A stretch of DNA of 43,702 bases from a virus: the IMG/VR virus record IMGVR_UViG_3300028883_000074, positions 1 to 43,702 of that record, one strand, 5' to 3'. Shown here one piece after another: positions 9,904 to 43,228 of this stretch. Made by a program: the position numbers and the translations under genes. The notes under the pieces were generated by a model. It saw only the letters and a program-made list of their open reading frames with translations, searched no databases and was not told where the DNA came from. Positions within the stretch are counted from its first letter, which is position 1. Each line of letters opens with the position of its first letter.

Positions 9904-11033
9904 ATGTACTTACATTATTTAGTTATAAAAGGACGCCAATTCCGTTACTTTCTTTGGTAGTGGATGATGAGGATATAGAGTTCTATACTTTCTATTTTCC
10001 CAATACTGGCCTTACTATAAATCAGATAGAGGATAATATTAATAAGTTCAAGAAGTTATTTTCACGGGATAATGTTTGTTGCAATGATTTTCTTTCGCAT
10101 ATCCAGGCTTTCGATTTAGATATTCGTGATTCGTATGATGTTTATGATTATTGTATTCCTGAGATTAAGTTGTCTACGAATGATCTTGGTAGATGCAAGA
10201 GGGCGTTGTGTTCTATTATTGACGAGTTGATTGATGATGATTATTCTCAGCAGTGGCGTCGGCTTGTCTCGAGTGCTTCTCTTGTATATTCGGTGTTGCA
10301 TTCTAGGGGTGTTTTTTGCGGTTATCGTAAGGAGTTTCCTAGATATAGTCTACAGACCTTGACGGGTAGGTCTAAGACAACTGGTTTTAATATCCAGGGG
10401 ACTACTTCTGATGATAATATAAGATCAGTTAATGATAATCATGAGTTTTTTATTTGTTTTGATTGGATTTCTGCTGATATTTGTATGGCTGCGCATATGT
10501 CTGGGGATAAGAAGTTACTTAGGTCTTTTACGGAGTCTGATCCGTATACTGTTATTTCGGATCAGACTGGTTTGGGGAGGGATGTTTGTAAGAATTCTTT
10601 TATTAGGTCTTTGTATGCTATGAATTTCGATAATGATATTTTTTCTATATTTCCGGGTTTTCGTTCTTGGATGGAGTCTCGTAGGGAGGAATTGCGGATG
10701 TATGATAAAGTTGATACGATCTTAGGTAGAGAATTCGTTTTGGGTGATAATAGGGAATTGAGTGTGTTTAATGCTCAATTTCAGGGTAGTGTGGTGCATG
10801 CTATGCAGTCAGTTTTGTCTAGGGTCTTTGATAAATATCCAGAGTATATTCTAACTGAGGTTCATGATGCTTTGATTTTATGTTGCCCGGAGCGTGTTGT
10901 GTGTAATATTATAGATGAGGTTGGTAAGATTATGATTTCGCCTCTTGAAGGTTTGGTTGATATTAGGATGCCTTTTACGATAAGTATTGGTGGGCATTGG
11001 AAAGATTGGGTTAAGGTTCGGACGTGTAGATAG
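9900..11033 (+). CDS. Reduced family A (PolI-like) DNA polymerase
   Basis: A 377-residue protein with the ordered motifs of family A polymerases. TGRSKTTGFNIQG resembles the 'TGRLSS..NLQ' element. Motif A is FICFDWISADICMAAHM, with the catalytic Asp at 188. Motif B keeps R227, K231 and Y239 with T7-like spacing. Motif C is EVHDALIL, where H322 and D323 remain but the usual following Glu is Ala. The N-terminal 140 residues show no clear 3'-5' exonuclease or 5' nuclease motifs, so the protein is far shorter than PolI or T7 polymerase. It could be a gap-filling or repair enzyme, a primer-processing partner for the separate 5' nuclease at 12852, or a non-catalytic relic. Both metal-binding Asp residues being present argues against a relic. 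Confidence 0.7.
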   Translation: MNVLTLFSYKRTPIPLLSLVVDDEDIEFYTFYFPNTGLTINQIEDNINKFKKLFSRDNVCCNDFLSHIQAFDLDIRDSYDVYDYCIPEIKLSTNDLGRCKRALCSIIDELIDDDYSQQWRRLVSSASLVYSVLHSRGVFCGYRKEFPRYSLQTLTGRSKTTGFNIQGTTSDDNIRSVNDNHEFFICFDWISADICMAAHMSGDKKLLRSFTESDPYTVISDQTGLGRDVCKNSFIRSLYAMNFDNDIFSIFPGFRSWMESRREELRMYDKVDTILGREFVLGDNRELSVFNAQFQGSVVHAMQSVLSRVFDKYPEYILTEVHDALILCCPERVVCNIIDEVGKIMISPLEGLVDIRMPFTISIGGHWKDWVKVRTCR

Positions 11034-11641: not shown

Positions 11642-12793
11642 ATGATTAGCAAGAAAGATATGTTAAACCGGATGCGGAAGAAGCGAGAGGAACGTAATAC
11701 CAGAAGAAAAGACCCAACGGAATTCCGTCCTCCCCGCGTCAAGGAAGACAAGAAGACCTACTACATACGGTTTTTGCCGCCATTGGAAGCTGGCGAGAAG
11801 TGTGTGACGGGAACTTGCCCCGAAGATAAAGCCCTGGATAATTGGTTCTATGAAAATGGGAACCACTGGCTGGGAGCGGCAGGTAAGCGTTTGAAGTTAG
11901 AATGTCCTAGAGCGCATGACAATGGGGATTGCGCCATATGTCAGTTGGGTTTTGATCTTCTTGACGAAGAGAAAGACGAAAAGAAGAGAAGCGAGATTGC
12001 CAGGACGTATTTATCTCGCGTATATTATGCTGTTAATGTGTATTTTCCGGATATCAAAGCAAATCCGGAGGAAGTTAGAGGGAAGGTGATGTGGTGGAAT
12101 CTTCCCAAGACGATTTATGATAAGTGTGATGAGTGTCTTATGAATGATGATTGTGGGGATGAGATCGATCCTAAGGCTCATGGTCTTTTCTTCTATCCAG
12201 AAGAGGGTTATGCTTTTAAGGTATCAATCAAAAACAAAAACGAATATAATAATTATGAGGAGTCTGGCTTTGTAGTCTCCAGTCTGGGGCATCTTCTCTC
12301 AGAAGAGACAAAGGATGGTTTCGAGGAGGTTAAGGATAAGGTGGGGCAGATTTTAGCTCAAAGACATATCTTGCAGGACAAGTTCCAAGCCCGTGACCCC
12401 GACAAGATTGAAAAGGTCGTAGATGAGTTGCTTGGTGGTGGTGACGATGATGAGGATGAGAGCATCGATGCCACGAAGTCTAAACCGCGTGATAAGACAT
12501 CCGCCGCCACACAGAATCTTGGTAGTACGAAAGCTGGCGAGATAGACAAGAGCGGTTTGCCTGATGATGAGCCGGTAGCCGAAGAAAAGAAGGAACCAGA
12601 ACCGGAGAAGGAGCCGGAGCCAGAGCCGGAGCCGGAGAAGGAACCAGAGCCGGAGAAGGAGCCAGAACCGGAGAAGGAGCCGGAGAAGGAACCAGAGCCG
12701 GAGAAGGAGAAGGAACCGGAGAAGGAGCCAGAGGGAGATCCGGACGTAAAGGATCTATTGGCCAGAATCAGGGCTAAGAAGGCAAAGAAATAA
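11642..12793 (+). CDS. Single-stranded DNA-binding protein, T4 gp32-like, zinc type
   Basis: A 383-residue protein. A basic N-terminal arm (residues 1-25, [14 protein letters not shown]) would give cooperativity, as in gp32. The core contains YYIRFLPP and a zinc site H75, C88, C97, C100. The spacing H-x12-C-x8-C-x2-C is nearly that of T4 gp32 (H-x12-C-x9-C-x2-C). A second Cys cluster, [10 protein letters not shown], follows at 162-171. Residues 301-310 are [10 protein letters not shown], a motif repeated in the NYN protein at 42581. A long PE/KEPE low-complexity stretch (about 317-364) and a basic end follow. The long acidic tail probably recruits partners. A terminator follows the gene. Confidence 0.87.
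12591..12733 (+). repeat. GAG/CCG-rich tandem codon repeat in the SSB tail
   Basis: An imperfect array of 12- to 18-base units encoding [10 protein letters not shown] and KEPE. It uses varied Glu and Pro codons (gaa/gag, cca/ccg), so part of the repetition is kept at protein level. Its length is likely to vary between relatives by slippage or recombination. A shorter PE repeat occurs in the gene at 3062. Confidence 0.75.
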
Positions 12794-12811
12794 GCATCCT
12801 GGATGATCGAC

Positions 12812-12836
12812 AAAGCCCCACATTCCGTGGGGCTTT
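12812..12836 (+). terminator. Hairpin terminator after SSB
   Basis: AAAGCCCCAC and GTGGGGCTTT form a 10-base-pair stem with loop ATTCC, 18 bases after the SSB stop. The U-tract is short and partly in the stem, and the symmetric A/T flanks would allow some activity in both directions. The 5' nuclease gene starts 16 bases later, so readthrough or a new promoter must serve it. Confidence 0.8.
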
Positions 12837-38429: not shown

Positions 38430-38872
38430 TCAAGTATTTTGGCTATAATGCGCCTTTTATTGGTGGTCAGGAGAATATTTTATCTAGGCAGGAGGGTGAG
38501 CGTCTTATAAAGAATGATCTTGTCCAGTTGTTGCTTACAGCTCCTGATGAACGGGTGATGCGGCCTGATTTTGGTACTCGGATTCGTACATTTGTGTTCG
38601 ATAATATGGATGAACAGTCTTTGGATGAGTTGGAGAATGATATTCGTGAGGCTATTAGCACGTATGAGAGGAGAGTGCAGGTTAGAGAGGTTGTTTTGAA
38701 TTCTGATGATTCTAGGAATTTATTGGAGATTAAGATTTATGGTTATTTTAAGTTGGATAAATTTACTCCGGATGAGGCTGAGGAATTATTTGATCCTAGT
38801 GGTAATCCGGGGAATTATGATCTTTTAGTGGAGCTTGATATACCTACGGCTAGGTTGGAGACGGCTAGATGA
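38426..38872 (+). CDS. Baseplate wedge protein, gp25-like
   Basis: A 148-residue protein with the GPW/gp25 signature: NDLVQLLLTAPDERVMRP, then DFGTRIRTFVFDNMDEQS, followed by an extended acidic helix and a final beta region. gp25 joins the sheath-initiating wedge to the baseplate. The start overlaps the coiled-coil gene (ATGA) and its stop overlaps the start of the inserted endonuclease-like gene by four bases. G/T-rich codons match other baseplate genes. Confidence 0.86.
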   Translation: MIKYFGYNAPFIGGQENILSRQEGERLIKNDLVQLLLTAPDERVMRPDFGTRIRTFVFDNMDEQSLDELENDIREAISTYERRVQVREVVLNSDDSRNLLEIKIYGYFKLDKFTPDEAEELFDPSGNPGNYDLLVELDIPTARLETAR

Positions 38873-40326
38873 TGTCTGAGAAGGTGATTATTTCTTGCCC
38901 TAATTGCAATAGGAATATCGAGTTAACTAAGAGGGCTCTATATAATAGAAGATCGAAAGGTACGAAAAATTGCAGAAAATGTATGTATGAGAAAATAGGA
39001 AATAAAAATTCCCAGAATTTAAAGAGACTATGGAAAGATGAGAAATATAGACACAATATGATTAGTAAGATTGATAAGAGTAAAAGTATTATGAAATTGT
39101 TATCTCTTACAGAAGAGCAAAGAAAGAATGCCCACAGTGCTTCGGCCTCTACTCAGCGTAGACAGGAAAACCGCGAACTAAGTCGTAAAATGTCTTTATC
39201 ATTAGTGACCGAGGATTTTAGACGTAAAATATCCGATGCTGTTAATAAAGCATATTGTGATCCTGTTAAAGCAGCAAAGATGAAGTTGAGGAAGCCCTAT
39301 ACAGAGGAGATGAGAAGATCTGCGTCAGTTAAGATGAAAGAATTATGGAGAACTAAAAAATTTAGAGAAGCTTGGTTTTCTGGGATGGAAAGAATAAGCA
39401 ACAACCACAATTGGATCAGTTCTAATCAATTAATTTTATATTCGATACTAGATGATTTAGGTTTAGAATATTATAAGGAGCCTGAAGATATTAGAAAATT
39501 ATCTTTTGGTTCTTATAGATGTGATGCGATGATCTTGTCCGATAGGCCGTGTATTATATTCGTAAATGGAGATTACCATCACAGGTTTATACCGGAACGG
39601 GTTGAGAAAGATAAGAAATTTATGAAGTTCTATAATGAGAAATTGGCGAAGGATTACGATTTGTTGATATTATGGGAACACGAATTCTTAGCTAAGAATA
39701 GAATTAGAGATAGAATATTCGAAATCTTGGGAAAGACGGAGGAAATAAGACATATTGACAAGGAATCTATAAATTTCTGCGTAATTAATCGTAAGGAGGG
39801 CGATGAATTTTTATCGAAGTATCATTATATGACAAAAGGTGGGAGAGGAGGAACATACTTTGGAATTTATCATCGTACTATACTTATTGGTGTATCTTCT
39901 TTTTCCTCGATTACTAGAAAAGAGAGCGCTGATAGGTTAGGGGCAGAGCCTCACCAGGTATTAGAATTAAATAAATTCTGTCTTAATCCTGGGTATTATT
40001 CTCATAATTTATCGTCTTGGTTTTTGTCCAGATGTGTGAAGTTTATAAAAAAGAACAGAACATATGTGAAATATCTATTGGCATTTTCTGATGAGGCCTT
40101 CCAACATTTGGGGACCATTTATAAAGCGTCTGGATGGATGGAAGACGGTTGTAACAAGCCTAGTTATTGGTATGTAGATTCCAACGGGCATATTATACAT
40201 AAGAAAACTTTATATGTTCATGCTAGATCGATAAGGATGAAAGAATCAGATTTTGCAGTAAAGTTCGGATATAGAAAAATATACACTGGAAGAAGAATAA
40301 GATTTGTAAAGGAATTATATGGCTGA
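38869..40326 (+). CDS. Free-standing homing-endonuclease-like protein with Mom-like C-terminal domain
   Basis: A 485-residue chimera. Residues 10-38 form a zinc finger (C10, C13, C35, C38). Residues about 90-170 are basic, short helix repeats of a DNA-binding kind (NUMOD3-like). Residues about 183-285 resemble the Vsr/PD-(D/E)XK-type nuclease fold (SYRCDAMIL with D219, NGDYHH at 233-238, LILWEHEF at 267-273). Residues about 300-485 look like the GNAT-type Mom adenine-modification domain (DEFLSKYHYM, VLELNKFCL, GTIYKASGW, KKTLYVHARS). A-rich codons differ from neighbours. It overlaps gp25 at its start and the gp6-like gene by 8 bases at its end. Confidence 0.72.
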   Translation: MMSEKVIISCPNCNRNIELTKRALYNRRSKGTKNCRKCMYEKIGNKNSQNLKRLWKDEKYRHNMISKIDKSKSIMKLLSLTEEQRKNAHSASASTQRRQENRELSRKMSLSLVTEDFRRKISDAVNKAYCDPVKAAKMKLRKPYTEEMRRSASVKMKELWRTKKFREAWFSGMERISNNHNWISSNQLILYSILDDLGLEYYKEPEDIRKLSFGSYRCDAMILSDRPCIIFVNGDYHHRFIPERVEKDKKFMKFYNEKLAKDYDLLILWEHEFLAKNRIRDRIFEILGKTEEIRHIDKESINFCVINRKEGDEFLSKYHYMTKGGRGGTYFGIYHRTILIGVSSFSSITRKESADRLGAEPHQVLELNKFCLNPGYYSHNLSSWFLSRCVKFIKKNRTYVKYLLAFSDEAFQHLGTIYKASGWMEDGCNKPSYWYVDSNGHIIHKKTLYVHARSIRMKESDFAVKFGYRKIYTGRRIRFVKELYG

Positions 40327-42013: not shown

Positions 42014-42042
42014 TTTTCACGACATATTCCTATTGATACTAT
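42014..42042 (+). promoter_or_regulatory. Weak candidate promoter after the baseplate genes
   Basis: TTTTCA and TACTAT with a 17-base spacer lie just after the gp6-like stop. The match is four of six at each box, which is weak. It could serve the unit at 42059-43228. Confidence 0.22.
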
Positions 42043-42058
42043 GTTTCCAGGGGACAAA

Positions 42059-42571
42059 ATGAGTAGGATAATCCGTAACTTGGCTTTGTTACGTAATCTG
42101 GGTGTGAGGCTCTCCTCTTTGGCGGATATGAGAGGGAATCCGGAGAATGTGACAAAACAGCATCAGGACGAGTCTCGTGCTTTGTCATGGGCTTTTAATG
42201 AGCTGAGAAAAGAGCATTTAGCCAGATTGTTTTTGGCTTATTGTGCGATTGGGGATGAAAAGCATCTGCCTATTTCGTCTAGAATGAGACCAAATCAAAG
42301 ACATGATATGGTTGCTTTTATAGAGATGAACCCGGATGAGATTCTGGTTGCTGAAGCTCTGGATGTACTTCCGAATGGCGAAGAAATCGATATGTCCTTG
42401 GACAAGTGCCCTGATTGGTTCTTTTGTGATCGTGTTATTGTTGTGAATGAACCAGTTAAGGCGGTTTTCATTGATGGTTTTTTGGACGTTCAGTGGGTGT
42501 CTGAGAATGGTCTTGGGAAGGCTAAGCTCGCACTGATGTCTTGGTTAATGGGGCTGTACAGCAGCCTATAG
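42059..42571 (+). CDS. Hypothetical protein
   Basis: A 170-residue protein. The ATG at 42059 is chosen, with AGGGGA upstream; an ATG six codons earlier lacks a site. It starts basic (MSRIIRNLALLRNLG) and has an alpha/beta body (CDRVIVVNEPVKAVFIDGFL). It directly follows the baseplate genes and lies nine bases before the NYN-domain gene. No family is recognised. Confidence 0.6.
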   Translation: MSRIIRNLALLRNLGVRLSSLADMRGNPENVTKQHQDESRALSWAFNELRKEHLARLFLAYCAIGDEKHLPISSRMRPNQRHDMVAFIEMNPDEILVAEALDVLPNGEEIDMSLDKCPDWFFCDRVIVVNEPVKAVFIDGFLDVQWVSENGLGKAKLALMSWLMGLYSSL

Positions 42572-42580
42572 GGGGAAGTT

Positions 42581-43228
42581 ATGACACACAATTCACAGCG
42601 TGTGGGTATCTTTGTTGATGTTCAAAATATGTTCTATTCAGCAAAGACTATTCATTGTGGCAAAATCGAATATGGTAAATTCCTTGAGGAGTTGGTCCAG
42701 GGAAGGCAACTCGTAAGGGCGATAGCTTATATTGTACAGAAAGCCGATGTCAATCAAAGCGCCTTCAAGGAGGCTCTGCAGAGGTTTGGGTATGAATTAC
42801 GGGTCAAAGAACTTAAGATCCGAGAAGGCAGTGATGGGAAGATGAAGGCCAGAGGCAACTGGAATGTTGGTATTGCTGTAGAGGTTCTTGAGATTGCTTC
42901 TCGGTTGGATACGGTTGTTCTTTGTTCTGGGGATAACGAGATGACTCCTCTTGTTGAGTCTCTTAAGAGCAAGGGTGTCTGTGTTGAGTTATGTAGTTTT
43001 CCTGGTGCTACTGGGCATAAGTTGAAAAATGCGGTTGATAGGTTTATGGCTATTCCGGATGAGTGTATCTTTAAAGAGAAGAAATTTGATAGCAAGAAGG
43101 CTGAGGAACACGGGCTAGGTTCTACTGATAGAGATGGTATTGATCGCAGTGGATTGCCCGAGGATGATTATGATGAGGAATATGATGAGGAGTATGACGA
43201 GTCTCCTTTGTCGCTTGATATTCACTAG
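42581..43228 (+). CDS. NYN/LabA-like (PIN-type) RNase-like protein with acidic tail
   Basis: A 215-residue protein with a NYN domain: VGIFVDVQNMFYSAK (D13), RGNWNVGIAVEVLEIASRLD, and VVLCSGDNEMTPLVESLKSKG (D118, E120). In the usual KGVDVxxxxD motif the first Asp is Asn95 and the second is Glu101, so metal binding may be altered. A separate acidic tail carries IDRSGLPEDD (residues 187-196) and DEEYDEEYDES. The same ID-x-SGLP motif is in the SSB tail. NYN proteins usually cleave RNA. The tail suggests a partner shared with SSB. Confidence 0.78.
   Translation: MTHNSQRVGIFVDVQNMFYSAKTIHCGKIEYGKFLEELVQGRQLVRAIAYIVQKADVNQSAFKEALQRFGYELRVKELKIREGSDGKMKARGNWNVGIAVEVLEIASRLDTVVLCSGDNEMTPLVESLKSKGVCVELCSFPGATGHKLKNAVDRFMAIPDECIFKEKKFDSKKAEEHGLGSTDRDGIDRSGLPEDDYDEEYDEEYDESPLSLDIH

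Follow-up and report, generated by a model that had tools for sequence, protein, structure and literature searches.

The tails of two phage proteins, a gp32-like single-stranded-DNA-binding protein (SSB) and an NYN-domain protein, share a short motif that we tentatively regard as a docking motif of host origin, carried by a probably inactive NYN protein and present in a second copy on the SSB. We put this reading at slightly less than an even chance. Both genes lie on the plus strand of a 43.7-kb virus record of IMG/VR, which was analyzed at its full length and is here called the window. The replication module of the window comprises UvsX, a DnaB-like helicase, a polymerase, a UvsY-like protein, the SSB (383 aa, 11642..12793), and a 5'-3' exonuclease. 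At its far end, baseplate genes are followed by the gene for the NYN protein (215 aa, 42581..43228).

A preliminary description of this DNA had reported a ten-residue likeness between the two tails, and both peptides were exactly placed: SSB residues 301-310 at 12542-12571, and NYN residues 187-196, IDRSGLPEDD, at 43139-43168. The match is longer than first claimed. It begins eight residues further upstream, with LGST in both proteins (12518 and 43115), and runs gap-free over 18 residues, SSB 293-310 (12518..12571, plus strand) against NYN 179-196 (LGSTDRDGIDRSGLPEDD; 43115..43168, plus strand), with identical LGST-x9-LP spacing and 11 of the 18 residues kept. The underlying codons do differ, as had been stated, 8 of the 11 shared residues being encoded by other codons. 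Identity of the motif DNA is 14/18, 13/18, and 4/18 at first, second, and third codon positions, respectively. Since third positions agree at only 4/18, the likeness is not a recent DNA duplication. Each copy indeed opens an acidic, low-complexity tail, with a net charge of about -19 in the SSB and -14 in the NYN protein. In the SSB, an acidic spacer consisting mostly of EP/EK repeats extends from the motif to the C-terminal tip (12572..12739, plus strand); the long Ser/Gly-rich antisense ORF at 12358-12813 on the minus strand is a mere complement of this EP-repeat tail.

The motif consensus, written as a testable peptide, is LGST-x9-LP-x-D-[DE], and the LGST-x9-LP spacing is constant in all ten copies, that is, in phage NYNs, host NYNs, and the window SSB. 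The SSB copy has GE[IV]D in common with the NYNs of the closest relatives of the window phage, G001 and G002, and ID[KR]SGLP in common with the window NYN. Because it contains GE[IV]D and not the GQTVYE of the host proteins, it is of the version found in the phage clade. Probably, the SSB copy descends from a phage NYN or has evolved together with one.

The Smith-Waterman score of the SSB tail against the NYN tail is 66, a value that 5000 double shuffles never reach; the Gumbel p is about 1e-4. When whole proteins are compared by local score and the motif is not known beforehand, the SSB-NYN pair ranks second among the 1128 protein pairs of the window; hence, the strength of the match comes from the conserved motif and not from bare pairwise likeness. 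Nine phage contigs, translated in six frames (1.25 million residues), contain LGST-x9-LP five times, namely in the two window copies and in three NYN tails. A profile of the NYN motif that included the window NYN row and left the SSB out finds the SSB at E 2.1e-6. With a held-out profile, built from NYN tails only and containing no window sequence, the SSB is the top match in the window (E 0.0053, the next match having 0.99) and has E 0.077 over all nine contigs; 2 of 100,000 shuffled SSB tails reach its score. The window NYN itself is not among the matches of the held-out profile, and its copy is thus the most diverged one. A strict version of the motif, applied to all IMG/VR contigs, yielded G001, G002, and four frames that we took as chance.

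Eleven related phage contigs, two of which (G003 and G004) are near-copies, were identified in IMG/VR by scanning with the NYN protein and with an alignment. The NYN tails of G001 (LGSTAPGEVDIKDLPKDED), G002 (LGSTASGEVDLKDLPKDED), and G016 (LGSTAAGKTIIDGLPRDDD) carry the full motif. Only the GLP-acidic half is present in G003/G004 (EGLPHDEEE) and G015 (EGLPVDDE), the motif is absent from the NYN tails of G005 and G017, and the remote NYNs of G018-G020 have no such tail. Thus, the full motif is found in 4 of 8 phage-clade NYNs and half of it in two more. A GLPADEE peptide in G015 was rejected as a second motif carrier, as it sits before any usual start codon. It belongs to a stretch of 21 bases (L080, about 12221-12241) that is 90% identical to the NYN tail-coding DNA at 10206-10226, reads in frame as ETLEGLPADEE, and lies just upstream of a gene resembling those of homing endonucleases, an insertion that separates the NYN gene from the conserved gene next to it.

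Directly upstream of the NYN gene in the window, positions 42041-42571 encode an unannotated protein without a family, which also occurs in G001-G005 and G015 (22-28% identical) and had no tblastn match in G016. In G016, some 84 kb separate the NYN gene from the baseplate genes. Another window protein, encoded at 38869-40326, matches two families, one of Mom-like DNA modification proteins (phrog_1384) and one of homing endonucleases (phrog_3339). As G016 contains six stretches resembling it, it looks like a member of a mobile or expanded family.

The NYN family of the window phage is host-derived. A single genome scan produced 80 bacterial NYNs, the best being from Planctomycetota. Five Planctomycetota NYNs (L082-L085 and L088), all from metagenome-assembled genomes, show about 49-57% identity over the domain and carry LGSTAxGQTxxEGLPxDED in a long tail; the other bacterial NYNs of the 80, mostly short anammox-type proteins, have no motif. 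Among the five, identity is 88% in the motif, against 19% in the preceding 18 residues and 31% in an 18-residue stretch just downstream. In the phylogenetic tree, the phage NYNs and the five tailed Planctomycetota NYNs form one 13-row clade (97/93). The window NYN has the same arrangement as the tailed planctomycete proteins, an FKEKKF junction followed by a tail with the LGST-x9-LP motif and its acidic end (LP-x-D in the window); the planctomycete proteins differ from it in a longer tail and in a catalytic triad kept in 4 of 5. As far as one gene can tell, the phage host is probably a planctomycete of the motif-carrying class.

Of the 12 matches that a DNA pattern of the motif had in 294 Planctomycetota genomes, five are the NYN genes just described and the other seven are scattered, unrelated frames; a profile search of 29 genomes of the motif-carrying class found the motif in those five NYNs only. 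The motif is thus no random tail of a common kind; the profile searches revealed no second host protein with it. The 555-aa planctomycete ORF L172, which fits the DNA pattern (LGSTGDPSNKPDALPDDD), was attributed to chance, the profile search of its genome, G149, being silent at E 0.01. An obgE-like gene is found near the host NYN gene in L083, L084, and L085, and a thiamine-phosphate-synthase-like gene directly upstream of it in L083, L084, and L088 (both named by eye). In the open-library literature searched, no paper connected an NYN domain with the LGST-x9-LP motif.

The C-terminal tips of the NYN proteins form a separate feature. Four of the five tailed Planctomycetota NYNs (L082-L084 and L088) end in PDLGIL[AG], and the tips SKFGIFS, SKFGILS, NKFGIFG, and SKFGVLS are found among the phage proteins of G001, G002, G016, and G017 (KFGVL in G017). 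The pattern [DK][LF]GI[LF] does not occur in the window NYN, which ends in SPLSLDIH (43202..43225, plus strand), at most a putative homologue of the tips of the relatives. The NYN tips (KFGIF, DLGIL) are reminiscent of a weak beta-clamp-binding peptide (QLxLF); since the Gln is missing, we do not claim them as such.

The assignment of the window protein to the NYN family is based on PF01936 (E 1.2e-31; 110.6 bits against a cut-off of 24.2), on PDB 2qip, which is matched by sequence (E 6.8e-22) and is also the best fold match (E 1.7e-15, with a TM of 0.88 for the target length), and on the tree. The AlphaFold model, built from a shallow alignment, has a well-folded domain at about 7-166 and a disordered tail at 169-215 (pLDDT below 50) that contains the motif. 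The catalytic triad of this NYN type, D14, D92, and D115 in VPA0982 and D358, D426, and D452 in MARF1, is reported to be absolutely conserved (PMC11346440), and mutation of MARF1 D426/D427 impairs silencing (PMC6294520). The fold and overall sequence of the window protein are those of the VPA0982-type NYN (PIN-like; PDB 2qip), the CRISPR-associated NYN ribonuclease (PMC11346440), and the MARF1 NYN domain (PMC6294520), and the first and third Asp (D1 and D3) correspond to its D13 and D118. Unlike these proteins, it has Asn at the second position (D2), N95 (42863..42865, plus strand), the equivalent of D92 of VPA0982 and D426 of MARF1; it reads ARGNWNVG instead of AKGDWDVG, and SGDNE instead of SGDGD, and the domain is followed by the motif-bearing disordered tail.

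Other phage NYNs are altered as well. The D2 residues in the window, G001, G002, G003, G005, G015, G016, and G017 are N, N, N, A, D, N, S, and E, respectively, and G005, which keeps D2, has E for D3; the triad is changed at at least one residue in 8 of 8 phage-clade NYNs. In the bacterial homologues, D1 is present in 80/80, D2 in 75/80, and D3 in 80/80. The protein had initially been described as an NYN-type RNase. With the second Asp replaced by Asn in the window and every phage-clade NYN altered in the triad, nuclease activity is doubtful. The window NYN is probably not catalytic, a changed Asp triad being no proof of inactivity, and its sequence makes a decoy or adaptor role appear more likely than that of an RNase.

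For the SSB, the gp32-like label proved right. It matches PF08804 at E 5.5e-14 (53.1 bits, above the curated cut-off of 26.8) and phrog_224 at E 3.9e-14, and the gene order polymerase, UvsY-like protein, SSB, 5'-3' exonuclease is also found in G016. In a six-sequence alignment, H75, C88, C97, and C100, which would make up a putative metal-binding Cys/His site of the core, are invariant. The SSB structure model is too poor to use (mean pLDDT 39); a helix is predicted at 367-382. T4 gp32 and other SSBs of PF08804 (PMC11551737) likewise have a gp32-type core, an acidic C-terminal tail with a conserved tip, and a position beside the genes for a UvsY-like protein and a 5'-3' exonuclease; what the window SSB adds is the internal LGST-x9-LP motif and the EP-repeat spacer. 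In alignments, the C-terminal tip (12740..12790, plus strand), with its DxxxLL, is the part of the tail that is common to the window SSB and the SSBs of its relatives, unlike the internal motif. The C-terminal A-domain tails of gp32 recruit partner proteins (PMC11551737), so that one more recruiting motif would be reasonable in the tail of the SSB; in the window protein itself, the acidic tail with its conserved tip would be the candidate for such recruitment.

The preliminary description had taken its proposal to be refuted if most homologues of either protein lacked the motif, and on the SSB side this is the case. The SSB copy was found in the window phage only, being absent from five other SSB lineages, represented by G016, the G007 type, L044, L045/L046, and L047. 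G016, the only relative found to have both genes, carries the motif in its NYN protein and lacks it in its SSB. No NYN of the window kind was seen in the contigs with the other four SSB lineages, several of which are fragments, and the contigs of G001 and G002 are without the replication module and so fall outside the SSB comparison. Searches of annotated phage genomes yielded nothing at E 0.01 by tblastn with the window SSB and NYN and no match to the tail peptides. Only remote gp32s (from cyanophages, vibriophages, and others) were found for the SSB, at E 0.03 or worse, and a close relative containing the SSB was not reached by searches with the helicase or UvsX either.

Location in a disordered tail and conservation in both phage and Planctomycetota NYNs are the behavior of a partner-docking motif. 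In this part, the initial proposal, that the motif serves docking, is supported, by the protein-level constraint, the disordered NYN tail, and the conservation in NYNs of other phages and Planctomycetota. The other part, a partner common to SSB and NYN, is not: their link is not conserved, no partner was identified, and a single shared one would have to be postulated. If the motif serves docking, the phages would have inherited it along with the NYN gene taken from a Planctomycetota host, where it may bind a partner of the host. Having kept the motif while its nuclease center eroded, the phage NYN could then occupy this partner as a decoy or adaptor, and the SSB copy, exposed many times on coated single-stranded DNA, might hold the partner or the NYN domain at replication sites. 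A more specific scenario, to which we give a rather low probability, is that the disabled phage NYN is a decoy with a dominant-negative effect on a host complex for RNA decay or defense, and the graft on the SSB captures this complex at replicating DNA.

The NYN tail motif might instead bind to its own NYN domain, either in cis or from one subunit to another; the SSB copy would then recruit the phage NYN directly, with no third partner involved. Such a direct contact between SSB motif and NYN domain is a serious rival: domain and motif go together in hosts and phages, and no other motif protein or candidate partner is apparent in the phage and host genomes searched. However, the tail has no defined place in the AlphaFold model (pLDDT below 50, from the shallow alignment), and tail-less close homologues from Brocadiales show that the domain can do without the tail; overall, binding to the domain itself does not seem very probable. 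It is also conceivable, but unlikely, that the SSB motif has no function of its own, NYN tail DNA having been copied long ago within the genome into a low-complexity tail that tolerated it. Such tails exchange easily, one SSB only carries the motif, and its version is of the phage-clade type. Yet an unselected old copy would be expected to decay, and here 11 of 18 residues persist with third positions agreeing at 4 of 18.

Both tails are compositionally biased, and two acidic tails rich in G, S, D, E, and P could have arrived at like peptides by convergence or chance, the more so as the pair is only second of 1128 when nothing is known of the motif. The shuffling results (0 of 5000, p about 1e-4; 2 of 100,000 with the profile free of window sequence) and the occurrence of LGST-x9-LP, five times in 1.25 million residues and always in an NYN tail or the window SSB, make this distinctly improbable. 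Least credible is a processing or turnover signal, recognized in the host by a protease or adaptor and acting on both proteins, which we consider very improbable; the shortness of the motif, its place in disordered tails, and its host origin would suit such a signal, but a general tag should occur in several proteins, and only the NYNs and the window SSB carry this one.

Under the docking interpretation, which we still prefer at the tentative level given above, the window would provide a case in which the appearance of a host docking motif on a phage replication protein can be traced, and the peptide could be used to fish for the partner of the planctomycete NYN family. The alteration of the triad in every phage-clade member examined is, in addition, a caution against reading phage NYNs as active RNases.
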